Positions 1 to 35,174 of a stretch of 64,000 bases of DNA are shown here, in pieces; the first letter of the stretch is position 1; the number at the start of each line of letters is the position of its first letter. The DNA comes from Asterias amurensis (lineage: Eukaryota; Echinodermata; Asteroidea; Forcipulatida; Asteriidae). The translations under genes and the position numbers were made by a program. Under the pieces are notes generated by a model that was given only the letters and a program-made list of their open reading frames with translations, ran no database searches and had not been told where the DNA came from. The stretch spans positions 4,107,001 through 4,171,000 of the forward strand of contig NC_092648.1 in assembly GCF_032118995.1 (NCBI RefSeq), in the 5' to 3' direction.

Positions 1-1229
1 TTGTCAATTCAGACATCCCCTAGCAAAACCTCGTTTACACAGCCAGCACGGAAATTAATTTGAAAACTTAGACTTGTGAACAAGTCGTAAAATGTTTGTC
101 TAGGTTGTTCCGTATAACAGCATGTGATATACTCTTCCCAGACTCTTACTCGTGACTTGTTAAACCATTTGGGAGCAAGCAGATTCATAAGCGCAGCACA
201 GTTATGCGAAAGCTGTTACCGCTACAACAAAAACATAAAACAATATTATTTTATACCAGCCGACATTGAACCTCAAGTTGTGCAAGTAATGCGTAATATG
301 TATACATACAAATTATAAGTAAACAAAATCAGTGTATCCCGCAACAAAAATATTTACTGCAACCCCTTTCTGCCAGAACTTTTTTATACTTATCCAATTA
401 AATTCCAATTAATTCTGATTAGTTGGCAGCCGGAATGCCGTTATGTTTACATTGTCACGACTAGTGATGCACTCTGTTTTGCGTCAAGAAAAATACTAGG
501 CCTTAAAGAAGCATTTTCTGCTATAAAGCAGCTTCATAAAATTGGTCCAAATTTAAAGAACCGGTTCCTCGTGCTCCACTGATTATTCAGACATCAAAAA
601 CACCTTAATATAATTAATTGATGGGTTATTTTGGGAAGAAAAGGTAATTACATTGTAAAGTTTTGAGATCTTCAAAAAACGGATCAACAACATTCATTCA
701 AAAAGGAGTAGGCCCTATAGTTTGAAAAAAAAATCCAGAGAAAAGAAACCTAGTATGAATCCAGAAGAATTGCCATTTTTACGAAAGACCTTTTGCAATT
801 ACAGCATCCTTAAAATATGTAAGTCAATTGATAACTTTTTAAATCTCCTTACCCTTTTCCAAAACAATGCTCTCTGTTTCTCAGTCGCGCGGAAGATATA
901 TTAACCATTGGATGGGTGTATAAATAACCTTATAAATTCTCAATAACTTTCAGACGCACTTCTTTGATCTGTCCTTTTGAGTTTTCTATTCAATTATACA
1001 CTTTATTCGGGAAAAGAAAATTATACCGATTGGTAAACACTATATTTATTTGAAACCAAAGCGCCAGGGTCATTTTAGGAGCAGAAATCTCTGACTGACC
1101 CTTGAATACAAATAAATATTCATCTATTGAGAATCAGTCCATTTTATTTACCAATATGGATTAGGGAGGCAAAATTAGCCTAACACACGCGGCAGTTGCT
1201 TTGATATGCAAATGAAGGAAACTTGATGC
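1..1229. other. No supported gene
   Basis: AT-rich sequence with short open frames only. One frame at 127-318 stays open for about 60 codons but has no good ATG start and no recognisable motif, so it is not called. I see no repeat structure of note. Confidence 0.5.
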
Positions 1230-1405
1230 ATCCGTGACGACCCAGCACAAAGCACTAAGCAGACCTGTGTGGGGACCGGGGGCGCACTGTCGAGCTCCTC
1301 TGAAGAAAATGGTTGCCTGCCGTGGCCGTCGAGCTGTGTCCTGCTCCAACAAAACGGAATTTTTCACCGGAGTTGCGAGGAAAATCTACATGAAAAGTGC
1401 AAATG
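1230..1405 (+). other. Candidate first exon, unknown transcript
   Basis: A locally GC-rich stretch ends in a strong donor, AAATG/GTGAGT, at 1405/1406. An octamer motif ATGCAAAT lies just upstream at 1205-1212. An ATG in good context (AAAATGG, 1309) opens 32 codons that run into the donor in phase 1, but joining to the next exon-like segment at 3510 closes that frame after a few codons. A second ATG forms the last three bases of the exon (1403-1405); spliced to 3510 it would give a 33-residue reading frame. The promoter and exon status are inference. The transcript could equally be non-coding. Confidence 0.3.
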
Positions 1406-2130
1406 GTGAGTTGAGAACATCCTCGTCATGAGAATTGAAGTGTTGGAATGGATTTATTGCCCATGTTTTGAAGGAATTTCGAGTGTTTTTCGGTGCATGC
1501 AAGGCGCGAGTTTTAAAATGAACTGCCTATCCAAACGTGTTGCCTTGCTTTTGATGTTCAGTCGATGCCATTGTTGAACATTGGGTCGGAGATTTGTTGC
1601 TAAACAACTTTCTCTCAATAACTTGAGTGCATCTGGAAGTTACTGAAATTTTATTAAAGCATAGCCTAGGTGCAAGTTGTAGTATGCAAAGCATTGCGTG
1701 CGTTTCCATACCAATGATTTTGTTCTTCCAACTTTGGGGTCATCATTTGATGTTGTCAACGTAATGCTCTTCTTTAGGAATAATTTATCAAGATTAAGAT
1801 AAAAGTGTCCACAAAATATATTGTCACTTGTTTTTTTTTAAAGACTGTCGGACAATCCATGTTTGGCAAGATGACAGCGCCGGGGTATCCAACCTTTTTG
1901 TTAAATAGACTCAAACCGCCTGAGGTCTGAAACAAGATTCTTGTATAATTTAATTTATTTTTTAGCTTTACCGTCGACTGTTAAAGTTAATATAACAGAA
2001 CTTATTTGTCAACTCCTTAAAGGCTAGTTTTCTTATTGTTATTTCTACTCTTTGTTTCCGCCTGAATCCCCATAGCGTTTTTATAAGTTTTTTCTTCTTT
2101 TCTTCTGGAATTGAAGCTTAATACTTGAGC
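1406..2130. other. Putative intron, no other feature
   Basis: AT-rich sequence following the donor at 1406. I see no open frame or repeat that can be supported. Confidence 0.4.
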
Positions 2131-2520
2131 TTAAAGGAACACATTGCCTTGGATCGGTCGAGTTGGTCTTTGAAAAGCGTTTGTAACCGTTTTTTATAAA
2201 ATGTATATGTGTAGAAAGATGTTGCAAAAGTAGTATACAATGATCCACACAAACATGCCTCAAAATTGCGTGGTTTTCCTTTTACCTCGTCGACTAACAC
2301 GTCGGCCATTTATGGGGGTCAAAATTTTGACTCCCATAAATGGCCGACCGTGTTAGTTCGCTCAGTAGAAGGAAAACCACGCAATTTCGAGGCAAACGAG
2401 TGTGGATCATTGTATTCTACTTTTAAAACATCTTTCCAACCATATGCATTATATAAAAAACGGTTACAAACGCTTTTGTTTTGACCAACTCGTCCGATCC
2501 AAGGCAACGTGTTCCTTTAA
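2131..2520. mobile_element. Foldback MITE, TTAA-ended
   Basis: A nearly full-length inverted repeat. The left arm begins TTAAAGGAACACATTGCC and the right arm ends with the imperfect complement GGCAACGTGTTCCTTTAA. The arms are about 190 bp each and meet near 2,325 in a short loop. TTAA at both ends fits a TTAA-target (piggyBac-like) MITE. It has no coding capacity; open frames inside it are arm artefacts. Confidence 0.85.
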
Positions 2521-2654
2521 AAAGGTGAAGTTCTCAAGTTATAAACCACAGCTTGGCTAGCTTGCTAATTATGCCATGAATTTGGTTTACATTCTTAGTT
2601 TGTTAATTAAAATCACGTGATCTTCATTTGAATATTTATTTAGTCAATATTTGC

Positions 2655-2905
2655 AGCACCATATCTCAAGAACTACACAACCGATTTGCAATTTCTTTTC
2701 AGTTATATAGATCCTTTGAGCATTGGAAAGTGAACTTGGGTTACCGTGACCCCATCTTGACCCCTACTTTAGGGTCAACCGGAAGTGGGACCAAAATCAA
2801 AACCATCACTGATTTTCAATTTTGTTTTCAGTTATATACCTTGTGAGCAATGAAGATTGAACTTGGCTTGACCTCATACCTTAAATTCTGATTCAACCGG
2901 AAGTA
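2655..2905. repeat. Two diverged ~120-bp direct repeats
   Basis: Two adjacent copies each contain TTTTCAGTTATAT, a short spacer, a GAACTTGG box and an 'accggaagt-ggacc' end. A third, more diverged copy lies at 4590-4780. These look like an old dispersed repeat; the family is not recognised. Confidence 0.5.
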
Positions 2906-3509
2906 GGACCATTTCTATGGAATTACACAACATTTCTTGAAGACTCTTTGAGCACTTAAGGTTAAACCTTATTAACTGTGAACTCATGTTAATCTTAACT
3001 TTAAGTCTCAAATGTTTTATTGAAAAATCACTGAATAAACCTAGTCATCACCATTCCTCAACATTCCTCACCATTTTTTAAATAACTCTTGCTTATTTTG
3101 ATTGCAACAATCAAAATAAATCTTATTTGAATGTGACTTCCTCTGAAGAGAGGTGGTTTTGGTTGTGCACTTTTTGCAAGCAATCTACTGGATTGGTTTC
3201 ATTGTGAGAGCTCGGTGATAACGAGCTCACATCGTCACCAATCCTTGAAAGCTTCTAGGCATCTAATGTCATAGAAATTCACTGTAATGTATGGTGTGTT
3301 TTTTGGTTGTTTTTTTTTGCAATCATGCTATGCACATGTGTACCCAAAAATTTTTCTTTACGCCTTTTGTGCACTTAACTTTTTGTTGAAAGTAAACAAA
3401 ATCCTTTTGTATGAGTTTAGTTAAAAATTTCTGTCTTATGAAGGGTTAAATAACAAATTATGCGCACTGTTTATGTTGCAATAAGAGCTGTTATATTTAT
3501 CTTTCACAG

Positions 3510-3644
3510 CACGAGGGAGCCGATGACGTACAACCCAAGTGTGCAAGTAACAATGTTGAAGGCTTAGAGCATTTCTTTAAGACGTTCTACACATCAAAGA
3601 ATCAATGATGAACAACCAAGCAACTTGACTGTAACCTGCTGTTG
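3510..3644 (+). other. Candidate internal exon, unknown transcript
   Basis: The acceptor is a pyrimidine-rich tract ending TTTCACAG (3509) and the donor is TTG/GTAAGT (3644/3645), enclosing 135 bp. Frame 0 is open for 32 codons before a TGA and has a plausible protein-like composition (HEGADDVQPKC at the start). It could be read from the ATG that ends the candidate exon at 1405. The residues match no family I recognise. It could also be a non-coding exon. Confidence 0.35.
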
Positions 3645-4097
3645 GTAAGTTCCTACAATCAGTCTGGTAAATAAACTGCTCACTCCTTCACAAAAGTGAA
3701 AGGAAACTCCTGAACATTGAGACGTCTGTTCATTCATTGATCTATTGCAGTTTCCTTAATATAAAAATGTTTCATCACTTTCTCTTAGTTGTTCAAGTTG
3801 TTGACAGCGGAGAAGCCAAACTTAAAATGGATTAGGCAATTTCATTGTAACAAAAACATTTACAGTAGAGGATTTTTGTCCAGTAAACTTCATTCTAGTT
3901 TAGTGTCCTTTTTTTGAGGGGGGGGGGGGGGGTATGTGAAGCAAATAGTTGTAAGTTCTTTTGTGGCAAAAAAATTATCTTACACAAACCTCAAGTTTAT
4001 GCAGAATGACATTGGTTAATATGTTTACATGTAATTGTAATGTTTCATTTGAACACTTAGTAAAAGGAAACATTTTAAATATCATATTCTTAAAGTA

Positions 4098-4408
4098 AAA
4101 GGAACGTTACAGAATTGGTAAGAAACAAAAATTGTGAAGATCACAGATTTACATAAAACTTACACAGTCTAATGATGATGATAGTGGAAAACATCCCTTG
4201 AAATGTTTCTGTCTGAAATTTCATATTTGATGAGAAATAAATAATCTAGTTTTGATCAGTGCAACATTTGTTATCGGTTTGTCACTATTCTCTCGTGACC
4301 CAGATGGCCGATTGATCTCAAACTTCTACAGGTTTGTCAGTTTATGTATATGGTGGATTACATAAAGTGCTTACACTGCCAGCAAAACAAATTCTGCAAT
4401 GTTCCTTT
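4098..4408. mobile_element. MITE, AAAGGAAC-ended
   Basis: The terminal inverted repeats read AAAGGAACGTTACAGAATT on the left and its imperfect complement at 4388-4408. The interior (CACAGATTTACA, then a block resembling CTTGAAAT) resembles the interior of the element at 32331-32695, so the two probably belong to related TTAA MITE families. Confidence 0.7.
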
Positions 4409-4514
4409 AAAAAACATTTGCTTGTCCTGAAATAGAATTGATTTTTAGACTGTTTGTACTTTGAAGGCGTGTCATCTAGCCGTAGATAATATCTACCTGT
4501 AACTTAAATTCTGA

Positions 4515-4600
4515 AGACATCATGCGGTCGCTAGCCTAACTCAGATGCATAGTTTTTCCCTTCAGATTGATGACAGATAATAACAAATTAAAACAACCGA
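4515..4600. repeat. Flanking repeat shared with 13,035-13,110
   Basis: A segment containing CATCATGC, TAGCCTAAC and 'ccttcagattgatgacaga' recurs, diverged, at 13,035-13,110. The two copies bracket the whole minisatellite and exon-module region, which suggests that the flanks took part in an early duplication. Each copy carries an acceptor-like pyrimidine tract ending CAG. Confidence 0.45.
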
Positions 4601-4778
4601 TTTTCAATTTGTTTTCAGTTATAGTTTGATTAAGCATAAGGAAGATTGAACTTGGGTAACTGTGACCCCATGTTGACTTGAACTTGACCATAACTCAAGA
4701 CCTACACAGCCAACTCCACAATTTATTTCAGTTATATACCCTGTGTCACCAATTTGCCTTTACTTTCGGGTCAAGAAC

Positions 4779-5025
4779 TGGGCCCAATTTCATAGAGCTG
4801 CAAAGCATAAAAATTTGCTTAGCATGAAATGTTTGCCTTGATAAAAACAGGATTACCAACCAAATTTTCACGTGATTTTCAGGATAGGCAAACAACAGCT
4901 GAATACCAGACTAACAAGCAATATGCAACAAATGAAAATATGGTTGGTAATCCTGGTTTTACCAAGGAAGAAATTTCTTGCTAAGCAAATTTTTGTGCTT
5001 AGCAGCTCTATGAAATTGGGCCCTG
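4779..5025. mobile_element. Foldback MITE, GGGCCCAATTTCAT ends
   Basis: The left end CTGGGCCCAATTTCATAGAG and its complement at 5006-5025 form terminal inverted repeats. The subterminal GCTTAGCA motifs are also inverted. Solo fragments of the same family lie at 49,893-49,976, near 61,670-61,730 and near 62,880-62,950. Confidence 0.8.
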
Positions 5026-5179
5026 GTTGGAAAACGATGAACTAAATATATGAAAGGCCTACTGTTTGCTTATAAAACTTTACTCTTTTTACAGCAGGAT
5101 TCCCATCAAAAGCTGTTCCACTAAAATGAAATTGTATCTTAGCTTCATTTAAATTCAACTAACTTTTTTATTCTGCAGA

Positions 5180-5308
5180 CAAAAAGGTGAGCCACCCTCC
5201 AAAGATGTTGGCACATAAACATCATCCAAGTGAATGTCAGGGGAATTGAGATGCACACCTATATCCCATGTCAACCCAATGAAGATGTACACCCAGATAG
5301 TAGGAGTA
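5180..5308 (+). other. Exon-like module 0 (diverged)
   Basis: A pyrimidine tract ending TTCTGCAG (5179) precedes a 129-bp segment that ends at a GTAAGT donor (5309). The short stretch CCCTCCAAAGATGTTGG resembles CCATCCAAAGTGTTGG of the module at 6299. It is therefore read as a diverged outlier of the module series. No frame is open throughout. Confidence 0.35.
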
Positions 5309-6298
5309 AGTAGGAAACAGATTTTCCCCGGTTTTTTGTACATTGGGCTGTTTTTAAAGCAGTGTCATCATACATTTATGCCACCACATCTTGGAACTGC
5401 ATTCAGCCCATGTGAAGATGAACTGGCAATGGTTGCCCAGAATGGTTGTTAAGATATATGGCAATTGGTGTCCAGATGTAGGGCAGTTGGTGCCCAGATG
5501 ACTGGCAATTGGTGTCCAGATGTAGGGCAGTTGGTGCCCAGATGACTGGCAATGGTTGCCCAGATGTAGGGCAGTTGGTGCCCAGATGACTGGCAATGGT
5601 TGCTCAGATGTAAGGTATTAGTTGCCCTGATGGCAGTTGCCCAGATTTAAGGCAATGGTTGCCCAGACCATTGGCATAGGTGCTCGGTGTTTGGCAATGG
5701 TTGCCCAGATGTACAATAATGGTTGCCCAAATGACTGGCAATGGTTGCCCGGTCTGTTTGGGCAATGATTGCTAAGATAAATGGCAATGGTTGCCCAGTT
5801 GTAGGGCAACCGTTGGGCAATGGTAGCACAAATGACTGCCATTTGGGTGCCCCGCTGTATAATGCTTACCCCAGATGTAGGGGGTGGTTGTAAAAAGACA
5901 GGCAATGGTTGCCCTGATGAATGAGCAATGGTTTCCTAGTAAAGCGACAATGGCTGCATATATGACTGGCAATGATTGCCCAGTCTATGGGGCAATGGTT
6001 GCCCAGTTGTAGGGCAATCAATGCACTGGCTTTGGTTGAACCATTGTATGGCAATGGTTGCCCAGATGACTTGCATTTGTTGCCCAGATGATTTGTTATG
6101 GTTGCCCAGATGACTGGCAATGGTTGCCCAGGTATCAAAACTGGTTGCCTAGATCTTTTTCATCGGTTGTTCGTTTTGCAATGAATGCCTAGAAGATGGC
6201 ATTGGTTGCCAAGAGAAGCTAGCTAAAGTTTCAAAACTGAATTAAATGTTAAACCAAGTTTTACATGATTTAGACATTTTTGTTTGTGCCCTTTCTAG

Positions 6299-6404
6299 AA
6301 ATGCGTGCCATTTTTCGATGAGTACCCATCCAAAGTGTTGGTGTCAGAAACCTGCAAGTGCTTACCATCTACCTAATCATCCATCGTCCATCTACACAAC
6401 TTAG
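6299..6404 (+). other. Exon-like module 1
   Basis: The acceptor is CCCTTTCTAG (6298) and the donor TTAG/GTATGT (6404/6405). The frame starting K-C-V-P-F is open for 25 codons and then meets TAA. This copy keeps the 'CCATCCAAAG' segment that the middle copies have lost. The 22-bp minisatellite lies on both sides. Confidence 0.6.
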
Positions 6405-7272
6405 GTATGTAAACTCCCTTGTATGGCTTAGTTGCCCAGGTAATTAGCAAAGGTTGCCTTGATGAATGACAATGGTTGCCTTCATAAATGGCAATTGGTT
6501 GCCCAGATGACTAGCAAAGATTGCCAAGATGTTTGGCAATTGGTGCCCAGATGTATGGCAATAGTTGCCCAGATGGCAGTTTTTGCCTAGATGTAGGGTA
6601 ATGGTTGCGCAGATAATGCAAAACATATGGTTTTTACTGTCATTGGTTGCCCAGATAAATGGAAAGGTTGCCCAGATGTAGGCCTATGGCAAAAGTTGCT
6701 CAGATAAATTGCAATGGTTGCCCTTGTGAAGAACAGTGATTGCCCGAATGACTGGCAATGGTTGCCAAGATGTTTGCAATTGCTGCCAGGATGTATGGAT
6801 GGGAGCCCAGTGTATGGCAAGGTTGCCCAGATTATTTGTCAATAGGTGCTCAGTTGTTTTGTAATGTTTGCCCAGATCTATGATAAGAGTTGGCCAGATG
6901 ACTGGCAAGGGTTGCCCAAATCAATGGCAATGGTTGCCCAGATGTATGGCAATGGTCGAACAAATTACTGGCAGTTAATACCCATATATAGGGAAATTAT
7001 GGTTGACCAGATGACTGGCAATGGTTGCCCAGATGTTGGGCAATTGATGCCAGAATGTATAGTATCGGTTGCCCAGATGATAGACAATGGTTGCCCAGTT
7101 TTATGGCAATCGTTGCCCAGATGTTTTGCAATGGTTGCCTAGATCATTGTCGATGATTGATCTGTTTTATGGCTATTGATGCCTAGATAATGGTAATGGT
7201 TGCCAAGCGGACGAGCTATAGTTGCCCAGCTGAATTAAATCTCAACCTTGATTCAATTTCACCCCTTTCTAG

Positions 7273-7360
7273 AAATGCGTGCCACACACAGTAATGATGT
7301 CAGAGACCTGCAAGTGCCTACCATCTACCCAGTCATCCATCAACCATCTACACAACATAG
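7273..7360 (+). other. Exon-like module 2
   Basis: The acceptor is CCCTTTCTAG and the donor ATAG/GTATGT. The module is 88 bp, shortened by an internal deletion after the K-C-V-P codons. The frame from the acceptor is open to the donor (29 codons plus one base). Confidence 0.6.
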
Positions 7361-7389
7361 GTATGTCAAATCCATTTTTGAATGGTTTA

Positions 7390-8193
7390 TTTGCCCAGAG
7401 AATTGGCAATGGTAGCCCAGATGTATGGCAATGGTCGCCCAGATGTATGGCAATGGTCGCCCAGATAACAACAAACAACAAACAACAAACAACAACAGAT
7501 GGCAGTTATTGCCCAGTAGTTGGGCAATATAATGCCAAGATGATTGGCGTTGGATGCCCAGATGACTGGCGTTGGATGCCCAGATGACTGGCATTGGATG
7601 CCCAGATGACTGGCATTGGTTGCCCATATCATTGGCAATAGGGGCTATAGTCGTATGGCCATGGTTGCCCAGATGCTTGTGATGGTTGTCCATATGGCAA
7701 TGTTTGCCTAGATAGCATTGGTTGCCCAGATGAATAGCACTAGGTTGCCCAGATGAATAGTAATAGTTGCCCTGATGACTGGCAATATGTGCTCAGTTTG
7801 TATGGCAAGGGTTGCCCAGATGACTGGCATTGGTTGCCCTGTCATTGGCAATGGTCGACTAATTATTATAACTGTATGCCCTTGGTTGCCCAGATGCTTG
7901 TGATGGTTGCCCAGACGGCAATGGTTGCCAAGATGAATGGCAAATGGTTGCCCCATTGAATGGCAGTGGTTGGCCTTATTATTGACAATGGTTGCCTACT
8001 TGTATGCCCTTTGTTGCATAGATGCATGGCATTGTTGCCCAGGTTGCAATGGTTTCCAAGATTAATGGCAATATGGTTGCCCAGATGGCTAGCATTTGTT
8101 GCCCCAATGTATGGCAATGGATGCCCAGATTATGGCAATGGTTGCCCAGATCATTGTCAATGATTGATCTGTTGTATGGCTATTGTTGCCTAG
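7390..8193. repeat. Minisatellite block with AAC-rich insert
   Basis: This is part of the 22-bp array. It includes a short (AACAACA)-type run at 7468-7497 and four close tandem units of a 'CCCAGATGACTGGC' variant at 7557-7620, a local recent expansion. Confidence 0.6.
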
Positions 8194-8200
8194 ATAATGG

Positions 8201-8533
8201 GCGGCATGGTTGGTTTGTTCGTAAAGCGCTCACCTCTCACCATGGTGACCCCGGTTCAATTCCCGGTTGGGGCCACATGTGAGTTGAGTTGTGCGTTGGT
8301 TCTCTGCTGTGCCACGAGGGTTTTCCAGACCATCCGGTTTTCCTCCCTCAGGAAAAAATCAAACACTTTCGATCTTGGCTGCGCTCCGTGGTCTTAATGG
8401 GTTGATGTGGCTGGCAGCTGAATGTGCCCTTGCATGCCTGCTTCTTGAACACGTTGTAGCCGCGTCCTTTGCAATTCAGCTCTTAGCTGCGAGTAAGGAC
8501 GATTAGCCCCCCAAATTATTAATTATTATCATT
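8201..8533 (+). mobile_element. tRNA-derived SINE in the minisatellite
   Basis: The head has tRNA-like A and B boxes (GGTTCAATTCCCGG is the B-box region). A non-tRNA body follows, with an ATTATTATCATTAT tail. A target duplication ATAATGG flanks it (8194-8200 and 8534-8540). The uninterrupted minisatellite sequence 'tagataatggtaatgg' survives in other copies, for example near 7,185, which confirms the junctions. It is non-coding and was presumably mobilised by a LINE. Confidence 0.8.
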
Positions 8534-8619
8534 ATAATGGTAATGGTTGCCAAGAGGTCTAGCTATAGTTGCCCAGATGAATTAAATCTCAACCTTGATT
8601 TCATTTCTCCCCTTTCTAG

Positions 8620-8721
8620 AAATGCGTGCCATTCTTGGATGAATACACACAGTAATGATGACAGAGACCTACAAGTGCCTACCATCTACCCAGTCATCCC
8701 TGTAGCATCTACACAACATAG
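8620..8721 (+). other. Exon-like module 3
   Basis: The acceptor is CCCTTTCTAG and the donor CATAG/GTATGT, enclosing 102 bp. The K-C-V-P-F frame closes at codon 12 because a short internal segment is missing relative to modules 1 and 7. The splice signals are intact. Confidence 0.6.
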
Positions 8722-9725
8722 GTATGTAAAATCCCATTTTTGATTGGTTCCTAAGCCCAGATCATTGGCAATGGTTGCCTTGATGTATGGCAATGGTTGC
8801 TTGATCAATTGCAATGGTTGCCCAGGTGTATGGCAATGATTGCCCAGATAAATGCCCATGGTTGCCAAGATCAATTGCAACGGTTGCCCTGATGACTCAC
8901 ACTGGTTGCCCGATCAATTGCAATGGTTGCCTTGATGTATGGCAATGGTTGCTTGATCAATTGTAATGGTTGCCCATGTGTATGGCAATGATTGCCCAGA
9001 TAAATGCCCATGGTTGCCAAGATCAATTGCAACGGTTGCCCTGATGAATAACATTGGTTGCCCAGATGTATTGCAATGGTTGCCCTGATGAATGACATTG
9101 GTTGCCCAGATGTATTGCCATGGTTGCCCCAATGAATGACATTGGTTGCCCTGATGATTGACATATGGTTGCCCAGATGAATTACAGTGATTGCCCAGGT
9201 GAGAGGTGACATGCATCGGTTGTCCATATTATTGACAATGGTTGCCCACTTGTATGCCCTTTGTTGCCCAGATGCATGGCATTGTTGCCCAGATTGCAAT
9301 GGTGTCCCAGATGAATGGCAATATGGTTGCCCAGATGGCTGGCGTTGGTTGCCCCAATGTATGGCAATGGTCGCCAAGATTTATTGCAATGGTTGCCAAG
9401 ATGACTGGCAATGGTTTCCCAGGTCTTTGTTGCCCAGATGCATGGCATTGTTGCCCAGATTGCAATGGTGTCCCAGATGAATGGTAATATGGTTGCCCAG
9501 ATGGCTAGCGTTGGTTGCCCCTATGTATGGCAATGGATGCCCAGATTTATTGCAATGGTTGCCAAGATGACTGGCAATGGTTTCCCAGGTGATTGTCAAT
9601 GGTTGCTCTGTTGTATGGCAATTGTTGCCTAGATAATGGTAATGGTTGCCAAGAGGACGAGCTATAGTTGCCCAGATGAGTTCAATCTCAACCTTGATTT
9701 CATTTCTCATTTCTCCCCTTTCTAG

Positions 9726-9827
9726 AAATGCGTGCCATTCTTGGATGAATACACAAAGTACTGGTGTCAGAGACCTACAAGTGCCTACCATCTACCCAGT
9801 CATCTATGTAGCATCTACACAACATAG
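9726..9827 (+). other. Exon-like module 4
   Basis: The acceptor is CCCTTTCTAG and the donor CATAG/GTATGT, enclosing 102 bp. The K-C-V-P-F frame is open until a TAG formed by the last three bases of the module (33 codons). Relative to modules 1 and 7 it is read in a shifted frame after the first ten codons. Confidence 0.6.
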
Positions 9828-9877
9828 GTATGTAAAATCAAAAATATGGTTGCCAGATGAATTACAGTGATTGTCCC

Positions 9878-10050
9878 GGGGTCGATTTCACAAAGGTAGT
9901 CCTAACTTAGGACTAGTCCTAAGCAATGCTAAGAGATAGGACTGGTCCTAAGTTAGGACCAGTAACTCATCCCAACTCAGGACTGATCCTATCTCTTAGC
10001 ATTGCCTAGGACTAGTCCTAAGTTAGGACTACCTTTGTGAAATCCACCCC
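9878..10050. mobile_element. Foldback MITE, TTTCACAAAG ends
   Basis: The ends are GGGGTCGATTTCACAAAGGT and its near complement at 10,031-10,050. The arms are rich in the palindrome TCCTAACTTAGGA. It is inserted in the 22-bp array. Related elements lie at 50,580-50,685, 50,850-50,972 and 58,709-58,870. Confidence 0.8.
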
Positions 10051-10372
10051 AGGTGATATGCAATGGTTGCCCATATCATTGGCAATAGTTGTCTAGTTGT
10101 GTGCCCTTTGTTGCCCAGATGCATGGCATTGTTGCCCAAATTCGTTGGTGTCCAAGATAATGGCAATATGGTTGCCCAGATGGCTAGCATTGGTTGCCCA
10201 AACTTATGGCAATGGATGCCCAGATTTATGGTAATGGTTTTTCAGGTGACTGGCAATGGTTGCCCAGATTATTGTCAATGGTTGCGCTGTTGTATTGCTA
10301 TTGTTACCTAGATAATGGTTATGGTTGCTAAGAGGACAAGCTATAGTTGCCCAGTTGAACTAATCTCAACCT

Positions 10373-10695
10373 CATAATAACAAGTTCTTATATAGCGCAT
10401 TTCACAATAAACCGTATCAATATGCTTTACTTTAGTCCCCTGGTCCCTTTAATCTTTATCAGTTCCTATTAGGGAGTATACAGCCCCGAGCTGCCGTGGC
10501 GCTCCGAAAGCTTTTCATTCACAATATCAGCCTCTACCCTCGCAGGTACCCATTTATTCCCCTGGGTGAAGAGAAGCAATTATAGTAAAGTATCTTGCTC
10601 AAGGACACAAGTGTCACGAGCGGGATTCGAACCCACACTCCGGTGAATTAGCACCAGAACTTGAATTCGATGCTCTTAACCACTCGGCCATGACA
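10373..10695 (-). mobile_element. tRNA-derived SINE, Leu/Ser-like head
   Basis: On the minus strand the element starts at 10695 with TGTCATGGCCGAGTGGTTAA, a Leu/Ser-type A box, then a B box (GGGTTCGAATCCCGC) and the acceptor-stem complement CGTGACA. A GC-rich body and an 'ATAAGAACTTGTTATTAT' tail follow. It is flanked by CTCAACCT (10365-10372) and CTCTACCT (10696-10703), an 8-bp target duplication with one mismatch. It sits in the intron-like leader just upstream of module 5. Confidence 0.8.
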
Positions 10696-10726
10696 CTCTA
10701 CCTTGATTTCTTTTTCCCTTTTTCAG

Positions 10727-10828
10727 AAATGCGTGCCATTCTTGGATGAATACACACAGTAATGGTGTCAGAGACCTGCAAGTGCCTACCATCTACCCAG
10801 TCATCTATGTAGCATCTACACAACATAG
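10727..10828 (+). other. Exon-like module 5
   Basis: The acceptor tract is TTTTTCCCTTTTTCAG, a TCAG rather than TCTAG variant, still 3' splice-site like. The donor is CATAG/GTATGT, enclosing 102 bp. The K-C-V-P-F frame closes at codon 12, as in module 3. A SINE occupies the leader 31 bp upstream without destroying the acceptor tract. Confidence 0.6.
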
Positions 10829-11812
10829 GTATGTAAAATCACATTTGTGATTGGTTTATTTGCCCAGATAATTGGCATTGGTTGCCCAGATGTATGGCGA
10901 TGGTGGCCCATATGACTGGCATTGGCTGCCCATATCATAGGCAACAGTTGCCTATGGTTGCCAAGATGACTGACATTGGTTGCCCCATTGTATGGCAATT
11001 GTTGTCCAGATAAATGCCAATGGTTGCCCAGATGTAGGGCAGTGATGGTCAGATGACTGTCAATGGTTGCACAAAATGACTTGCATTGATTGCCCTGTTA
11101 ATGGGTCAATGATTGCCCAGTAAACAATAGTTGCCCTTTTAACTGGCAGTAATTGCTCAGATGAATAGCAATGGTGTACCCCAGCTCTAGGGCAATGGTT
11201 GCATAAATGACTGGTAATTATTGCCCAGATGACTGGCAAAGGTTTCCCAGAAAAGGGGTTGGTTGCCCTGAAGAATGGCAAGTGTTGCCAAGATGAATGG
11301 TGATGAGTGCCTTATGTAGGGCAATTGTTGCCTTGTTGAATGGCAGTGGTTGTCCAGTTGTATGGCAAGGGTTGCCCCAAGGAATGGCATGTTGCCCATA
11401 TTGTTGACAATGGTTGCCCACTTGTATGCCCTTTGTTCCCTTGATGCATGGCATTGTTGCCCAGATTGCAATGGTGTCCCGATAAATGGCAGTATGGGTG
11501 TCCAGATGGCTAGCATTGGTTGCCCCATAATGTATGGCAGTGGATGCCCAGATTTATGGCAATGGTTTCCCAGGTGACTGGCAATGGTTGCCCCGGTTAA
11601 ATGGTATGGTTGCCAAGATGACTGGCAATGGTTGCCAAGATGACTGGCAATGGTTGCCAAGATGACTGGCAATGGTTGCCCAGATCATTGTCAGTGGTTG
11701 CTCTGTTGTATGGCAATTGTGGCCTAGATAGTGGTAATGGTTGCCAAGAGGACGAGCTATAGTTGCCCAGTTGAATTAAATCTCAACCTTGATTTCATTT
11801 TCCTCTTTTTAG

Positions 11813-11897
11813 AAATGCGTGCCATTCTTGGATGAATACACAAAGGTGTCGGAGACCTGCAAGTGCCTGCCCTATCATCCATCAACCATCTACACAG
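11813..11897 (+). other. Exon-like module 6
   Basis: The acceptor is TCCTCTTTTTAG and the donor CACAG/GTATGT. It is shortened to 85 bp by internal losses. The K-C-V-P-F start is conserved. Confidence 0.55.
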
Positions 11898-12813
11898 GTA
11901 TGTAAAATCTCATTTCGGATTGGTTCATTTGCCCAGATTGATCATTGGCAATGGTTGCCCTGTATACGGCAATGGTTGCTCAATCAGTTAATTAGATGCA
12001 TGGCAATGATTGCCAAGATAAATGGCCATGGTTGCCAAGATCAGTTGCAATGGTTGCCATGATAACTAGCAATTGCTACCTAGATGTATGGCATTGGTTG
12101 CCCAGCTAGATGACTAGCAATTGTTGCCTAGATGGTAGTGGTTGCCCAGATGATTGACATATGGTTGCCCAGACGAATTACAGTGATTGCCAAGATTTAT
12201 GGCAATGGTTGCCCTGATGAATGACATTGGTTGCCCAGATGAATTACAGTGATTGCCCAGGTGAGAGGTGCCATGCATTGGTTGTCCATGACAATGGTTG
12301 CCTACTTGGATGCCCTTTGTTGCCCAGATGCATGGCATTGTTGTCCAGACTACAATGGTGTCCCAGGTGTACGGCAATGATTGCCCAGATAAATGGCCAT
12401 GGTTGGCAAGATCAATTCTAACGGTTGCCCTAATAACTAGCAATTGCTACCTAGATGTATGGCAATGGTTGCCCAGCTAGATGACTAGCAATTGTTGCCT
12501 AGATGGTAGTGGTTGCCCAGATGATTGACATATGGTTGCCCAGACGAATTACAGTGATTGCCAAGGTGACATGCAATGGTTGCCCGGATGTATGGCAATG
12601 GTTGTACTTGGTACATGGCAATGGTAATGGTTTCCCAGATGACTGGCATTGGTTGCCCATATCATTGGCAATAGTTGTCTAGTTGTGTGCCCTTGGTTGC
12701 CCAGTTGCATGCGATTGTTGCCCAGATTGCACTGGCTGCCTAGATGAATTGCAATATGGTTGCCCAGATGACTAGCATTTGTTGAAAATGATTTTCATTT
12801 CTCCTCTCTCTAG

Positions 12814-12939
12814 AAATGTGTGCCATTCTCGAATGAATGCTCATCCAAAGTGTTTGTGTCTGAGACCTACAAGTGCTTACCATCTACACGCTGTCTTCCC
12901 ATCCTGCACTTGTCTAGATGTTTGAGGGTTACAATAGAG
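12814..12939 (+). other. Exon-like module 7 (open throughout)
   Basis: A pyrimidine tract ending CTCTCTCTAG (12813) precedes 126 bp, and GAG/GTATTT follows. Frame 0 is open for all 42 codons in a symmetrical 0-0 phase. It begins K-C-V-P-F and carries cysteines at codons 2, 9, 21, 27 and 36. It is the only copy open from end to end and the last before the array stops, so it may be the founder or a still-functional exon. I recognise no family. Confidence 0.5.
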
Positions 12940-13167
12940 GTATTTAACATCCCGGTGGTTACACTAACATGAAAAAAGTGGGCTGTGTTTGCAGCACTTT
13001 TACAGACGGCACCCCTATACGCCACATGCCACAACATTTTGGGGACTTCATGCTGGCATCAGCCTAACCCAAATGAATGGTTTTCCCTACAGATTGATAA
13101 CAGACTTAAAAAATATAAACAAGTTTTGATTAACAATACCCCTTTTTAAAACTATTTAACTCATTAA

Positions 13168-13509
13168 TTAAAGACGCTGGACACTATTGCTAGTTGTCAA
13201 AGACCAGTCTTCTCACTTGGTGTATCTCATGAATTAACAAACCTGTGAAAATTTGAGCTTAATTGGTTATCGAAGTAACGAGATAGCAATGAAAGGAAAA
13301 AAACCTTGTCACACTAAGTTGTAAGCTAAAAGATGCTTGATTTAAGATGCTTGATCTCGAAAATTCTTTCTCAAAAACTAAGTTAATTCACAGGGAGCTG
13401 TTTCTCACAATGTTTTATACTATCAACAGCTCTCAACTGCTTGTTACCAAGTAAGGTTTTAAGCTAATAATTATTTTGAGTAATTACCAATAGTGTCCGT
13501 TACCTTTAA
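13168..13509. mobile_element. TTAA MITE, GGCACTGGACAC family
   Basis: It starts TTAAAGACGCTGGACACTAT and ends with ACCAATAGTGTCCG and CCTTTAA, flanked by TTAA. This family recurs at least ten times in the window and is its most abundant dispersed element. Confidence 0.8.
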
Positions 13510-13557
13510 TAAGGTTTTACAGATGTAGGATATGTGTATAGAAGAGCAGTTAATGTG

Positions 13558-13581
13558 ATGTCACGGGTCACATCGTCTATA
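13558..13581. repeat. Solo end of a 'GGTCACATCGTCTATA' MITE
   Basis: A 16-bp match to the right end of the element at 52,760-52,970. No matching left end was found nearby, so it is probably a remnant. Confidence 0.4.
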
Positions 13582-13649
13582 GCCAGTAACTGTCACTGCG
13601 CCTCGAACACCCAGCAGGGGTGGATATGTGCGCATTACAAGTCTTATAC

Positions 13650-13772
13650 TTATTATTATTATTATTATCATTACTATTATTATTATTATTTACTATTACT
13701 ATTATAACTATTATTATTATTACTATTATTATTATTATTGTTATTATTATTATTGTAATTATTATAAGTTTT
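13650..13772. repeat. ATT/ACT microsatellite
   Basis: Imperfect (ATT)n with ACT variants over about 120 bp. Apparent open frames of Ile, Leu or Asn runs on both strands are artefacts. Confidence 0.9.
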
Positions 13773-13815
13773 TTGAGTTTGAGAAGTGCAGTGCATAATG
13801 GAACCATCAAATAGC

Positions 13816-14082
13816 TTAAAGGCACTGGACACATTTATTATCTCACTTGGTGTATCCCAAAATATCAAATATGTTGGGCTCAATTGGTCATCGAAGTTTT
13901 CAAGAGAATAATAAAAGCCTTCAGACCTGAAGTCTTTTATTATTTGAGTGATATTACCTCCTAAAAAACTACGTTACTTCAGAGAGAGCCGTTATACCAT
14001 AAACATCTCTCCAGTGCTCATGGCCAAGAAAGTTTTAATGGTAGCAATTATTATAAGTAACTACCAAGTGTCCATTGGCTTT
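13816..14082. mobile_element. TTAA MITE, shortened copy
   Basis: It starts TTAAAGGCACTGGACACATT and ends near CAAGTGTCCATTGGCTTT. It is shorter than the copy at 13168 and belongs to the same family. Confidence 0.7.
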
Positions 14083-14527
14083 ACATCTGTACATCTTACA
14101 CATCAATGAATCATGGTTTACTCATGTCAGTATTTAAAATAATTGTTTTAGTTAAAATAATAACTCGCATTTTGTAAAACAATGCCCTTCAAAAGTTTTG
14201 GCTCTGTGGTTCTAGTAAACCCTTGACGTTGAACTAATTTAAAGAAGAAAGTCATCCTTTTGTGTTTTTATTGGGAATTTTAATAATTTTGTTTAAATAT
14301 TATAATTGTTCATCAAAAACATGAGAAAGTTCTCTTACTGTTGACATAAAAGTCTCACAAACTCATCCCTAGGTCATTGTTGACCTTTTGTTGTCAAACA
14401 TTTATCGTGTAAAGAAAGTAGTTATGTTTCGGGCAAGTTTAGTTTAATTAATCAAAGTAAACGTGGTGTATACAGAATGTTTAGTAAGTCTGACAATTTT
14501 TGTTAAAGCCTTTTAATGGGAACATTT

Positions 14528-14729
14528 AATAGACCGATCCATTAAGCTCCACCCCATTGCGTATTGACCAATCACGACAAAACGAAGGTCCGAAAATCAA
14601 GTCCGTCATGGGTGCGCTTATGCTTTGCAATTGCGCGCGTGGCAGAGTTGTGCAGAAAGGCATTGGAGAGGCTGACGTGTTCTTGCTCCCACGTGCGTTG
14701 TGGGAGGAGCCAAATGGATCGGTCTATTA
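14528..14729. mobile_element. MITE, AATAGACCGATCC ends
   Basis: AATAGACCGATCCATT at the left pairs with AATGGATCGGTCTATT at the right. The interior is GC-richer than the surroundings. No coding. Confidence 0.8.
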
Positions 14730-15189
14730 GATGACAACTGTACTAATTGAGATTACTTTTCTCAATTCCTTAAAACAAAAGTACCAGAAAAGTAAAACCA
14801 TGCAGACAGAAACCAACCTTCCAAAAACTACGTGAAATCAGCATAAATTATTGCACAAAATTAGTTGTAACAGCTTAGCAGTGTTGTTTATTTATTGATA
14901 AATGAGATAACTCACAAATAATGTAACAAACGTATTGTGTCCAATAGATAAAGTATCACTTTTCACAAGATTCTGTTTTTCAAGCGAGTTACTTTACAAA
15001 GTACAGTAATTTAGCTAATGGTTTTATATTAACCTTAAAATTGTATTGTTTATAGTATATTATTTGGAGTTGTCAAATAAAATACCTATTTAAATGAAGC
15101 AAAACATCTATTTATTCTCTTATTTTGTTGTGATATACTTGTACTTATGTTTATTGTTGAATTAATTATGGAAGACATAGAGCCTAATT
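14730..15189. other. AT-rich, no feature seen
   Basis: No open frame, repeat or element that I can support. Confidence 0.5.
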
Positions 15190-15645
15190 AAAGTATCCCA
15201 AAGTACAATACCTTTAAAAACTTAAACCACTCCTTATACCATCATTACATTTAAATAAAACAAGTTCCTTTAATATAAAATGAGCCCCTTTAATCTTTAA
15301 AAACCTAACTACCATTTATACCATGGTTACAATTAAATAAAACAAGTTCCTTTAATATAAAATGAGCCCCTTTAATCCAGAAAGTACCACACCTTAAAAA
15401 CCCCAAATACCACTTAAACCATCATTTCAATTAAATAAAACAAATTCCTTTAATATAAAATGAACCATTTTACTCCAGAAAGTACCACACCTTTAAAACC
15501 CTAACTACCACTTATACCATTGTTACAATTAAATAAAACAAGTCCCTTTAATATAAAATGAACCCCTTTAATCCAAAAAGTACCACACCTTTAAAAACTT
15601 AAACCACTCCTTATACCATCATTACAATTAAAAGAAACAAATTCC
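15190..15645. repeat. ~100-bp tandem repeat, 4-5 units
   Basis: Units share 'CAAATTCCTTTAATATAAAA', a 'tgagccc' box and 'AGTACCACACCTTTAAAA'. The copies are diverged by scattered substitutions. Confidence 0.75.
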
Positions 15646-15987
15646 CTAACACTTAAATAATACATGTACACCTTTAAACCAATATTGCAAGATATTTATT
15701 ACTTGTTGTTATATCCCTTTAATGCAATTCAAACTGTTCCGTTAAAACAATACCACACTACAGTGAAGTCCCAAGAACCTATATCCCCCATAAACAATAC
15801 TTAAATCTACCCAGCATCTCCCCTTGAGACCACACCCAATCCCAATGATGTATATCTCCATACAGTCATTCCCCATCAATGGTCCTGCTCATCAGCACAC
15901 TCAGCAACCTCCAAGTCCCTAGTCCCAACCCTAACCCATCAACCAAGCCCTTATCCCAACCAGCCCATCCCACTCTCCTACCATCAC

Positions 15988-16640
15988 CCCAAGTCCTCAT
16001 CCCAAACAGTCCAGCCAATTACTCCTACACCATCACCCAAGCCCTCATCCCAAACAGTCCAGCCAATTACTCCTACACCATCACCCAAGTCCTCATCCCA
16101 AACAGTCCAGCCAATTACTCCTACACCATCACCCAAGTCCTCATCCCAAACAGTCCAGCCAATTACTCCTACACCATCACCCAAGCCCTCATCCCAAACA
16201 GTCCAGCCAATTACTCCTACACCATCACCCAAGCCCTCATCCCAAACAGTCCAGCCAATTACTCCTACACCATCACCCCCAAGTCCTCATCCCAAACAGT
16301 CCAGCCAATTACTCCTACACCATCACCCAAGTCCTCATCCCAAACAGTCCAGCCAATTACTCCTACACCATCACCCAAGTCCTCATCCCAAAGAGTCCAG
16401 CCCATCATCACTCCTACCATTACCCTAAGCCCTCATCCCAAACAGTCCACCCCACTCTTCTAACATCACCCCAAGTCCTCATCCCAAACAGTCCACCCCA
16501 CTCTCCTACCATCACCCCAAGTCCTCATCCCAAACAGTCCAGCCAAATACTCCTACCATCACCCCAAGCCCTCATCCCAAAGAGTCAAGCCCATCATCAC
16601 TCCTACCATCACCCAAGCCCTCATCCCAACCAACCGAGCC
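15988..16640. repeat. 48-bp C-rich minisatellite
   Basis: About eight near-identical 48-bp units (AAGTCCTCATCCCAAACAGT is the core) are followed by more diverged units to about 16,640. The plus strand is strikingly poor in G. Because 48 is divisible by 3 a 194-codon frame runs across it from 15,879, with a 16-residue repeat; I treat this as an artefact unless expression is shown. Confidence 0.8.
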
Positions 16641-16869
16641 CACTGGCTGCAGCAACCTCCCAGACCCTTACCCTAGCCCACCGAGGAACCTCCTTGGCCC
16701 CTCAGCACTTAGAAATTTTACTCCTCCAGCCAAGCTCCAAGGCCCTTGTAGGCCCTTGGTCAGCCTTCAGATCAGCTAGAAATCCAAGGGTTGAGCCAGG
16801 GAAAATAAATTCTCAAATATTTTCTAAGTCAGCCATTTTTAACTTCATCACTCCAAAAACCGTTAGATT

Positions 16870-16945
16870 TTTATAACAGCTCAGTAGCACAGCAGTGAGA
16901 GAGAGTGCTTACAGAGCGGAAGGTCCCCGGTTCAAGCCCTGCACA
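16870..16945 (+). repeat. tRNA-like SINE head remnant
   Basis: An A-box-like TAGCACAGCAGTGAGAG is followed by a B-box-like CCGGTTCAAGCCC. No acceptor stem pairs, so this is not a functional tRNA. Confidence 0.45.
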
Positions 16946-16989
16946 TTTTTGTTAGAATTGTAAAAAATTCTTTATTTAATGGTAAAAAA

Positions 16990-17075
16990 GGTCCCCGAAG
17001 GGATTTGAACCCACCCTGCTCACAGCTCCAGGATTCCTGGGGCTGTGAGCTAGCCCGCTGCGCTACGGCGGCTCT
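16990..17075 (-). repeat. tRNA-like SINE head remnant
   Basis: On the minus strand there is an A-box-like TAGCGCAGCGGGCTAGC and a B box GGTTCAAATCC. The middle folds as a long CTCACAGC/GCTGTGAG hairpin instead of an anticodon arm. It lies convergent with the head at 16,870. Confidence 0.5.
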
Positions 17076-17279
17076 TGAAAAAATTTGCTCGGAACTAATA
17101 TTTAAACCTTAGAATGGAAAGGTCAAATTAAAAAAAAGGAGATGAACCCTATGACCTTTGACCTTAGCAAGAGTCACAAGAACAAAAATAGAATAAAGAC
17201 ATGTCAGTTGGTGTGCGTTAAATAAAGGTTTATTTCCAGAACAAAAATAAACAATGCAAATATTAACGAGTAAAGCTAA

Positions 17280-17870
17280 ATGCCATTAATACTAAATACA
17301 TGTACCATTTAAATAGTTTAACATAAGAAAGTTACCAAGTTAAATTTAAAAACCTATTTAACTTAAATTTAGGTGTTTTTTGTTTAAGTATAAATATTAG
17401 TGTAATTTTTACCAAACGGGTGCTTTAAGCATCGAATTTGAGTGCGTAAGATTTATCTCATTTTGAATACCAAATTGCTTAAGCATAAGTTACTTGTTTT
17501 TCTTTATAAGAACTCAAATATAGGTCGTTAAGACTAAATACATGTCACATTTTAAGAAGTTTAACATTAGAAAGTTACAAAGTAAATTTAACTAAAATTT
17601 AAGTCCTTTTTTTGAAGTATAACTAAATTAGTAAGCAAAGAATTATAGATTTATCTTAACTTTAACATAAGTTACTTATTTTTCTTCATTCAGACCAAAA
17701 TAAGATTAAAGTTGTCGCAAAATAAAAACTTTTAAGTAACTTCTAATAAAAGTTATTATAACATATCAAAGTTTACTTAAATTTTAACAAAAATTCACCA
17801 TTGTCACAATTAAAGTATTAAACAGTAAGTATCTAAAGCGAGGCTGCCATATTACACGGTTTATTAGACG
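17280..17870. repeat. AT-rich direct duplication (~240-bp shift)
   Basis: 'TAAATACATGT' followed by 'AGTTTAACAT-AGAAAGTTAC' occurs at about 17,290-17,345 and again at 17,535-17,590. No coding frame. Confidence 0.55.
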
Positions 17871-17979
17871 CATCGATCGTGTACAAGTTGTGAATTAACA
17901 TTCAATTTCTGCAGCGCCTGTTTATACGAACGACACCGACGACGTTATTCGATAATTTATAAACTTGTGACTTGACATT

Positions 17980-31000: not shown

Positions 31001-31154
31001 CGCTCAAGAAAGTAAAGTGAAGCAACATTGGCAACCAGTGGCATACCACGAAAGGTCTGTCGCTCAAGTAAGTAAAGTAAAGCAACATTGGCAACCAGTG
31101 GCATTTAACCAAAGGTCTGTTGCTCAAGAAAGTAAAGTAAAGCAACATTGGCAA
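25095..31154. repeat. 60-bp satellite array, ~100 units
   Basis: The unit is 60 bp: GCAACATTGGCAACCAGTGG is followed by a variable 'cataccac', 'catacaac' or 'catttaac' segment, CAAAGGTCTGTTGCTCAAG, and (A/T)AAGTAAAGTAAA. A few units are 58 or 62 bp. Because 60 is divisible by 3, frames stay open for hundreds of codons on both strands: up to 606 on the minus strand, 200 on the plus strand, each with a 20-residue period. These give no domain, no plausible start context and no splice structure. The plus frames are cut repeatedly by unit variants such as GGCTTAG. I call this satellite, not gene. Confidence 0.95.
27450..31048. repeat. 1,798-bp tandem segmental duplication within the satellite
   Basis: Rare unit variants recur in the same order with a constant offset of 1,798 bp (30 units less 2 bp). 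Examples are a GGTATTTAAC unit, a CAATATTGGC unit, an AGCTCTGTTG unit, two TGTAATAC units and an ACCACAGG unit. The first copy spans about 27,450-29,250 and the second about 29,250-31,048. Only a handful of differences are visible, so this is a recent higher-order duplication. A smaller offset of 418 bp links 25,98x-26,40x to 26,40x-26,82x. Confidence 0.85.
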
Positions 31155-31165
31155 CAGTCAATAGA

Positions 31166-31530
31166 CAACAGCAACCAGTGGCATTGCACCAGAGGCCTGT
31201 TGCTCATTTAACAACAGACGACTGACATCGGTGTACTTATTCACAAGATGTTAACTGTATACAGAGTGCTATAAAAAATATAACAGCATTAAACTAAAAA
31301 CTCTACAATATCTTACTTTTGAAGGCAACAAACTGCTTGGTTGTTCAGGCATGATAACTTGAAGAAAAGCTAAGATGTCTTGATGATCACAATGTTTTCA
31401 TATGTTGCTCTCTATTTCCTGTAGCCTTTAAGTTATCAGTAGTGGTGACTCCATCTGCATTTGATTTCAGTGAGCCACTAGCTTCACCTCTGGCTCTGAA
31501 ATATAACGTTACAGGATAAGAACAAATTAT
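31166..31530 (-). pseudogene. Orphan last exon, long-frame type
   Basis: On the minus strand, 'TATATTTCAG' (31496) precedes a last exon. In phase 2, as supplied by the upstream exon type at 32,995-33,071, it encodes 36 codons after the split Arg, starting A-R-G-E-A-S-G-S-L-K and ending at TGA (31387-31389). A near-identical open copy is at 40,221-40,329. No matching upstream exon lies directly beside it; 84-bp satellite units intervene. Reading-frame conservation between the two copies suggests descent from a coding exon. The downstream part (31,166-31,370) is 3' UTR-like and abuts the 60-bp array. Confidence 0.45.
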
Positions 31531-31534
31531 ACAT

Positions 31535-31690
31535 GGTCAGTAGAGGGGGCTGTCACAGGCTAGTCAGGTTGCCCATATAAAAGCATCACTCCCTGACACC
31601 ATGTACCATGTGACCAAAACCCAGTAGGGTTGGCAGCAGTCACAGGCCAGTCAGGTTGTATAAAAGCATCACTCCCTAACGCACCATAAA
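31535..31690. repeat. 84-bp satellite, about two units
   Basis: Short stretch of the 84-bp repeat (CAGTCAGGTTG and ATAAAAGCATCACTCCCT cores), with one unit shortened. Confidence 0.8.
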
Positions 31691-31694
31691 GGCT

Positions 31695-34191: not shown

Positions 34192-34194
34192 ACA

Positions 34195-35165: not shown

Positions 35166-35174
35166 ACACACCAT

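Follow-up and report, generated by a model that had tools for sequence, protein, structure and literature searches.

Introduction

To our knowledge, noncoding exons that have been duplicated in tandem and still have intact splice sites are known mainly from imprinted loci of mammals. Mutually exclusive exon arrays of the Dscam type consist of exons that code and keep phase, and the dual-strand or spliced PIWI-interacting RNA (piRNA) clusters of Drosophila, among them 38C and flamenco, give rise to convergent or spliced noncoding transcripts over repeat-rich DNA. In mammals, the IPW-A/SNORD116 host carries repeated noncoding exons in one long transcript, the exons themselves lacking conservation from one mammal to another (PMC4742849). 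For the starfish Asterias rubens, piRNAs derived from transposons are reported (PMC6085071). Here we analyse a stretch of 64,000 nucleotides from Asterias amurensis (contig NC_092648.1, positions 4,107,001 to 4,171,000 of the forward strand; hereafter the window), in which seven exon-like modules follow one another on the plus strand within a minisatellite and a second exon array lies on the minus strand. We consider it probable that the window holds two facing, spliced and probably noncoding units whose exons amplify together with their introns.

Results

The module array and its inverted duplicate

A first-pass annotation, made from the letters of the window, had described the seven modules (locus A; Table 1) as copies about 1 kb apart with conserved splice-like borders, set in a 22-bp minisatellite. 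Both a profile search and a reading of the borders bear this out: the modules are spaced 974-1347 bp apart (n=7), a pyrimidine tract ending in AG precedes 7/7 of them, and AG/GTATGT follows 6/7, with AG/GTATTT after module 7; Tandem Repeats Finder (TRF) likewise recovers the minisatellite. By eye, most modules open with the tiny frame ATG CGT GCC ATT CTT GGA TGA or a close variant.

A profile of the seven modules and their flanks, searched, like all our genome queries, against 23 contigs (491,506,623 bases), gave 23 hits that amount to 21 copies, every one of them in the window or in an inverted duplicate (locus B) situated 250 kb away on the other strand of the same contig (C1:3.85-3.86 Mb), the copy number being 7 in one sister locus and 14 in the other. 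The window copies are the seeds of the profile and match it by construction, whereas the 14 copies of locus B do not and were found at E values from 3.6e-59 to 2.5e-16, the weakest belonging to the halves of two split copies. One of these two is interrupted by an insertion about 550 bases long and the other split by the fusion of two modules, and AG and GT are still present at the outer ends of both. Module 7 used as a DNA query returned at least 14 matches, all on C1 (4 in the window and 10 in locus B). An independent listing of border motifs gave the same acceptors together with two false ones that have no donor (A13784 and B38140), which were dropped before modules were counted. Homology between the two loci can be traced starting at window position 5091, and the window at 17.3-25.2 kb matches locus B at 97.9%. 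Exon 1 of locus B (found by profile, E 5.1e-16) sits about 0.9 kb ahead of its exon 3, and within the stretch examined no convincing exon 2 was found there.

An eighth, diverged copy had been proposed at 5180-5305. This exon, which we call exon 3, is indeed exon-like, and its acceptor and donor are kept in locus B, but its similarity to the modules is weak: against four of them, the score is reached by 2 to 13 of 300 shuffles, and for the locus B copy, compared in shortened form, by 12 to 146 of 300. The exon termed 3K, introduced below, fares similarly (4 to 227 of 300 shuffles in eight comparisons), and the kinship of either exon with the modules appears suggestive at best.

The acceptor AG and the donor GT are present in 21/21 copies. 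With changes counted by parsimony on a tree of these copies from both loci, the ten border columns (the AG before the module and the AG/GTATGT after it) show a single change, namely the GTATTT of module 7 and its locus B partner, against 1.38 changes per column in the exon interior (1.32 in a second column set), 1.92 in the far upstream part, 2.19 in the pyrimidine tract and 5.24 at positions +7 to +40 downstream, the last figure being partly due to misalignment. Only 14 of 7841 placements of an equal-sized block inside the exon are as quiet as the borders, which also withstand an inserted repeat ending about 36 bp upstream (module 5) and small adjoining indels in several copies.

Loci A and B were aligned base by base for two paralogue pairs, modules 5 and 7. 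In the former, differences amount to 0/102 in the exon, 11/320 in the adjoining inserted repeat, 17/322 and 48/191 in the upstream and downstream minisatellite, 1/36 at positions -36 to -1 and 6/40 at +1 to +40; in the latter, to 6/126 in the exon, 4/43 beside the acceptor, 48/575 in the upstream minisatellite, 2/161 directly downstream and 24/398 further on. The claim of the first-pass annotation that the modules are much better conserved than the surrounding minisatellite, which it had proposed to examine by comparing such rates, holds for alignability between copies, in part because indels scramble the minisatellite. The base-by-base rates are mixed: the exon of module 5 is slower than its flanks, that of module 7 is not. 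The constraint that emerges from these comparisons thus appears to lie on the splice borders, the exon bodies giving a mixed result.

Two inserted repeats with a tRNA-like appearance by eye lie in the array: one at 10371-10690, about 36 bp before module 5, has tRNA-like boxes and is carried by the locus B partner as well, its pyrimidine tract and AG being undamaged; the other, at 8190-8530, lies in the intron ahead of module 3. ARAGORN calls no tRNA gene in the window, the latter repeat included.

Coding potential

The statement that only the last module is open throughout could not be upheld, for 6/7 window modules are open in at least one frame, as are 17/20 intact copies of both loci (the interrupted copy B31637 being left out of the frame and length counts), and the last copy is therefore not special. 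Its open frame with five cysteines likewise gains no support as evidence of coding, given that shuffling module 7 leaves at least one frame open in 421 of 2000 cases, that Pfam gives no match in it at E up to 10 and that its resemblance to GPR158 stands at E 0.27. This resemblance had led to a GPR158-like receptor exon being considered: GPR158 was the sole match of the module 7 peptide in the PDB at E up to 10, with an E of 1.4, and a four-row profile that included the PDB stretch reached 0.036; without that circular stretch the value was the 0.27 given above, another sequence ranked higher, and the candidate was dropped. In the genome, the peptide also matches weakly (E 0.84) at a place on C9 that lies 1.8 kb from a 7tm_3 exon. 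Matches to 7tm_3 number at least 122 in the genome (150 of 248 candidates scored) and many are clustered, apparently marking a large family of class C receptors.

The length is not a multiple of three in 9/20 intact copies, and the 8 variable columns of the six 102-nt copies fall 1/4/3 over the codon positions of the open frame. Searched in three frames at E up to 0.01, Pfam has no match on plus-strand positions 1-25,000 and 45,001-58,000 or on minus-strand positions 31,200-45,200. We favour reading the modules as noncoding exons. As judged by eye, reading frames are not kept between the relatives of the family exons described next.

A dispersed exon family

Sequence similar to exon 1 and to parts of the region before it occurs at C1:3.095 Mb and C2:19.5 Mb (window 790-990 for the C2 copy, 828-958 for the copy at C1:3.09 Mb). 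A search with the C2 copy gave 27 matches on C1, C2, C4, C6, C8, C10, C14 and C16, the window and the query included, and the copy of locus B, found by profile, brings the total to 28. Ten of these were read (A, B, K309, K2 and six more). The GTGAGT donor stands at the homologous place in 10/10, the octamer ATGCAAAT lies 189-199 bp before the donor in 8/10, and in 9/10 the exon ends in ATG exactly at the donor, an arrangement that would be compatible with a start codon detached by the first intron. Columns without change across the ten copies are concentrated in the last 60 exon bases, the first 40 intron bases and the octamer block, and copies that are only about 70-82% alike nevertheless keep the donor and mostly the octamer. 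The exon falls into two classes, about 69-74% alike, and among the copies read the four of class 2 agree at 93-97% over a length of about 1-1.5 kb.

Exon 2 has 7 genome matches, with relatives at C1:1.56 Mb (three in tandem, one of them split by an insertion) and C16:2.30 Mb, and its acceptor is kept in those relatives whose start was read. At both places it is followed by exon 3K, which has 10 genome matches and is tandemly duplicated on C4, AG and GT being kept in both copies read. These relationships suggest that the plus-strand unit belongs to a dispersed family; among the matches listed in the open-access literature, judged by title and the start of the abstract, none describes such a family in a starfish.

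Several other elements accompany these exons. A long inverted-repeat element at window 2121-2521 is common to C16:2.30 Mb and C1:1.56 Mb at 85-96%; a 105-bp tandem repeat occurs in both orientations near family exons (L063, L065 and L066-L067, that is, C1:3.09, C1:1.56 and C16:2.30 Mb); the C1:3.09 locus also has TAACCC-like repeats; and a stem-loop of the histone 3' untranslated region (Rfam RF00032, E 1.5e-6) lies beside the tandem exon 2 copies at C1:1.56 Mb (L060, 2574-2620).

A predicted facing unit on the minus strand

In the first-pass annotation the modules were taken for exons that belong to a single plus-strand transcript and were amplified together with their introns, a proposal that is strengthened by 14 inverted copies with intact borders in locus B, by the near-invariance of the borders and by the relatives of exons 1 and 2, but that left out a facing unit with an exon array of its own. 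On the minus strand of the window, between 31.3 and 43.0 kb, an exon designated 2m keeps its AG in 6/6 copies and its GTAAGA in 6/6, and is related to exon 2 (E 2.1e-4 to 0.023 with the exon 2 profile). The exons resembling 3K that accompany it match that exon at E 0.013 within a 2.1-kb stretch and at 0.39 to 0.47 window-wide, and their kinship is less sure. The four longest self-matches in this region measure 1.6 to 2.2 kb and are 93.6-96.7% alike. One 2m copy used as a genome query found at least 40 matches (40 of 67 candidates scored) on many chromosomes. As expected of a duplicate, locus B retains the facing part, with 2m matches at C1:3829429 (plus strand, identical) and 3828886 (plus strand) that converge with its exon 1 at 31 kb.

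For orientation, we tabulated the 28 exon 1 copies and 8 exon 3K loci, leaving out the second 3K copies on C4 and C6. Within 60 kb, 18/28 exon 1 copies neighbour another exon 1 or exon 3K copy, and the pairs are convergent throughout (exon 1 with exon 1 in 5/5, exon 1 with exon 3K in 8/8; 13/13 in total, 17 to 38 kb apart), although the pattern was noticed in the very list on which it was counted. Exon 2m, taken against exon 1 copies within the same distance, gives 12 convergent, 15 tandem and 3 divergent arrangements, six of the 12 coming from the window and two from locus B. Facing is thus consistent for exon 1 and exon 3K, but not for exon 2m.

Minisatellites and neighbouring features

A genome search for a 19-base core of the 22-bp unit, matched exactly, gave 7 occurrences, of which the window holds 5 and locus B 2 (0 for the reversed control), and by this measure there is no sign in the genome that the minisatellite has spread beyond the two loci. 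The folding of three introns, each compared with 20 shuffles, gave z values of -3.0, 0.1 and -1.3 (one control, -2.5); as the introns are not consistently more foldable than their shuffles, exon circularisation through intron pairing was not retained as an idea. The 60-bp array that lies between the two units (25097-31155) holds minus-strand open frames of up to 624 amino acids, which are to be expected because its period is a multiple of three.

At the gathering score, Rfam, which would overlook unknown families, finds nothing in window 1-20,000 and nothing in the minus-strand unit, and in 12 other stretches, locus B included, only a histone stem-loop. Its sole match in the rest of the window is a full-length RNase MRP RNA gene on the plus strand at 62254-62509 (RF00030, 128.6 bits, E 6.5e-36). 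On the minus strand at 58000-64000, open frames rich in DDWG/WGE motifs, three of them without a Pfam hit at E up to 0.1, appear to resemble the C-terminus of SCYL1.

Table 1. Putative exons, repeats and other features of the two facing units, in window coordinates; a slash marks a splice border
Feature	Start	End	Strand	Length (nt)	Remarks
Putative promoter region of the plus-strand unit	790	1261	+		octamer ATGCAAAT at about 1206-1213
Exon 1 (start provisional)	1262	1405	+		donor ATG/GTGAGTTGAG at 1405/1406
Exon 2	3510	3644	+		acceptor CACAG/, donor /GTAAGTTCC; donor place differs in relatives
Exon 3, possible diverged module	5180	5305	+		acceptor TTCTGCAG/, donor /GTAAGTA; both borders kept in inverted locus B
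22-bp palindromic minisatellite filling introns	5452	12784	+		unit approximately GGCAATGGTTGCCCAGATGNNT; TRF
Module 1	6299	6404	+	106	profile, borders, parsimony set
Module 2	7273	7360	+	88	profile, borders, parsimony set
Module 3	8620	8721	+	102	profile, borders, parsimony set
Module 4	9726	9827	+	102	profile, borders, parsimony set
Module 5	10727	10828	+	102	inserted repeat (by eye) ends about 36 bp upstream; tract and AG intact
Module 6	11813	11897	+	85	profile, borders, parsimony set
Module 7	12814	12939	+	126	donor GTATTT in both loci
Diverged exon 2m copy	24605	24847	-		nhmmer E 2.5e-12
60-bp minisatellite between the two units	25097	31155	-		about 101 copies; TRF, 0% indels
Exon 2m copy (match span)	31290	31530	-		AG/ and /GTAAGA kept
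Exon 2m copy	31844	32065	-		AG/ and /GTAAGA kept
Exon-3K-like exon	32989	33087	-		TTGCAG/ and AAAAG/GTGAGT
84-bp minisatellite blocks interleaved with minus-strand exons	34193	45140	-		TRF, self-comparison
Exon 2m copy	35330	35551	-		AG/ and /GTAAGA kept
Exon-3K-like exon copy	36103	36201	-		sequence comparison
Exon 2m copy	40125	40361	-		AG/ and /GTAAGA kept
Exon 2m copy	41102	41323	-		AG/ and /GTAAGA kept
Exon-3K-like exon copy	41880	41978	-		sequence comparison
Exon 2m copy	42810	43031	-		AG/ and /GTAAGA kept

Discussion

In the explanation that we consider probable, the modules would all be copies, arranged in tandem, of a single spliced exon belonging to a probably noncoding plus-strand unit that comprises exon 1 (to position 1405), exon 2, exon 3 and the seven modules, each copy having arisen by duplication of a unit of about 1 kb made of exon and intron. 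Unequal exchange or slippage in the self-similar introns would make the copies, and exchange would have many places to act because the intron is a self-complementary 22-bp minisatellite. Copies with working borders would be kept, or at least not lost; splicing would join them into an RNA of near-identical exons; and this RNA would run toward a second such RNA transcribed from the minus strand, whose exons are likewise amplified in tandem among other minisatellites. Transcription, splicing, the noncoding status of the product and the mechanism of exchange are what we infer here. The amplification itself appears to be recurrent within one family, to judge from the 7 and 14 copies of the modules, the three of exon 2 at C1:1.56 Mb, the two of exon 3K on C4 and the six of exon 2m on the minus strand of the window.

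Several observations weigh against this explanation. No exon 1 was found in the window for the minus-strand array; 10/28 exon 1 copies, those of loci A and B included, have no exon 1 or exon 3K partner within 60 kb; and outside these two loci the orientation of exon 2m relative to exon 1 varies (convergent in 4 cases, tandem in 15, divergent in 3). The donor of exon 2 stands at another place in its relatives than in the window. The exons of locus A, when joined, hold an open frame of 201 amino acids that 0/300 shuffles reach, less striking because the repetition of units explains part of it. Finally, the exon of module 7, unlike that of module 5, is not slower than its flanks (6/126 against 2/161 downstream), and with rates as mixed as these selection on the exon bodies is at most possible.

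This last result is also what might be anticipated if the array were a dead relic, its exons no longer spliced and drifting as the unit of a composite satellite, with borders that look conserved only through youth or homogenisation; the interruption of one locus B copy by an inserted element and the origin of another as a fusion of two modules point the same way. We nonetheless regard a relic as unlikely, since the borders are quieter than the exon interior within the same copies, the interrupted and fused copies retain AG and GT at their outer ends, the exon of module 5 shows no difference where the adjoining repeat shows 11/320, and exon 1 has kept its donor, and mostly its octamer, across copies about 70-82% alike. 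A rather different possibility, to which we assign a somewhat smaller chance, is that the exon families belong not to host genes but to a large element, either mobile or segmentally duplicated, whose ends face inward. The 27 exon 1 and at least 40 exon 2m matches (40 of 67 candidates scored) on many chromosomes, the close likeness of the four class-2 exon 1 copies (93-97% over about 1-1.5 kb) and the convergence of 13/13 pairs would suit such an element; the variable distance between facing parts (17 to 38 kb), the divergence of the two exon 1 classes (only about 69-74% alike) and the fact that the scan of sense-strand stretches met neither a transposase nor a polymerase domain would not. The facing-unit explanation is compatible with an element of this kind, which could itself be spliced.

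The least credible alternative in our estimation, and one that we hold to be very unlikely, is that an exon of 28-42 codons has been amplified in a secreted or receptor-like protein, module 7 being its best-preserved copy. Apart from the 201-residue frame of the joined locus A exons, which no shuffle reached, it can appeal to the fact that module 7 is open in both loci, where 6 base differences entail 2 amino-acid changes (simulated P 0.029), and to the slight resemblance of its peptide to GPR158 (the only PDB match, E 1.4). Yet the joined exons of locus B (13 intact modules) yield an open frame of only 104 amino acids, reached by 31/300 shuffles; lengths that are not multiples of three (9/20) and variable columns spread 1/4/3 over codon positions speak against it; Pfam has no match in module 7 or in the scanned stretches; and the link to GPR158 recedes to E 0.27 once the circular stretch is removed.

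Returning to two facing, probably noncoding units, the array would allow the growth of exon number in such a gene to be studied, and, as recent and old copies stand side by side, it can be asked whether selection on a long noncoding RNA may act on its splicing alone. It may even be that loci of this kind are starfish-wide, two noncoding spliced units facing each other over 17-40 kb and each multiplying its exons together with minisatellite introns peculiar to it. The converging transcripts would then overlap and supply a double-stranded-RNA or piRNA pathway, and exon number would be the trait that evolves. We consider this generalisation improbable as a whole.

Among known systems, arrays of the Dscam type share with the starfish array tandemly duplicated exons with conserved splice sites, but the starfish modules keep neither their length modulo three nor a single open frame. 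Any likeness to piRNA clusters such as 38C and flamenco would lie in convergent, predicted spliced units over repeat-rich DNA: by sequence alone, convergent exon sets are found in the window, in locus B and in the 13/13 exon 1 pairs, and a piRNA role for the starfish units is possible, not likely. The nearest known kind would seem to be the IPW-A/SNORD116 exon array, with which the starfish array has in common tandem exon copies whose splice sites are kept (21/21) and which are apparently noncoding (9/20 lengths not multiples of three and no Pfam match in the scanned stretches, against which stands the 201-residue frame of locus A); in the starfish, too, they may be joined in one long transcript. 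The two differ in their introns, which in the mammalian host carry small nucleolar RNA genes and in the starfish consist of minisatellite in which Rfam, over the stretches searched, recognises no small RNA, and in their layout, for in the starfish window two arrays face each other.

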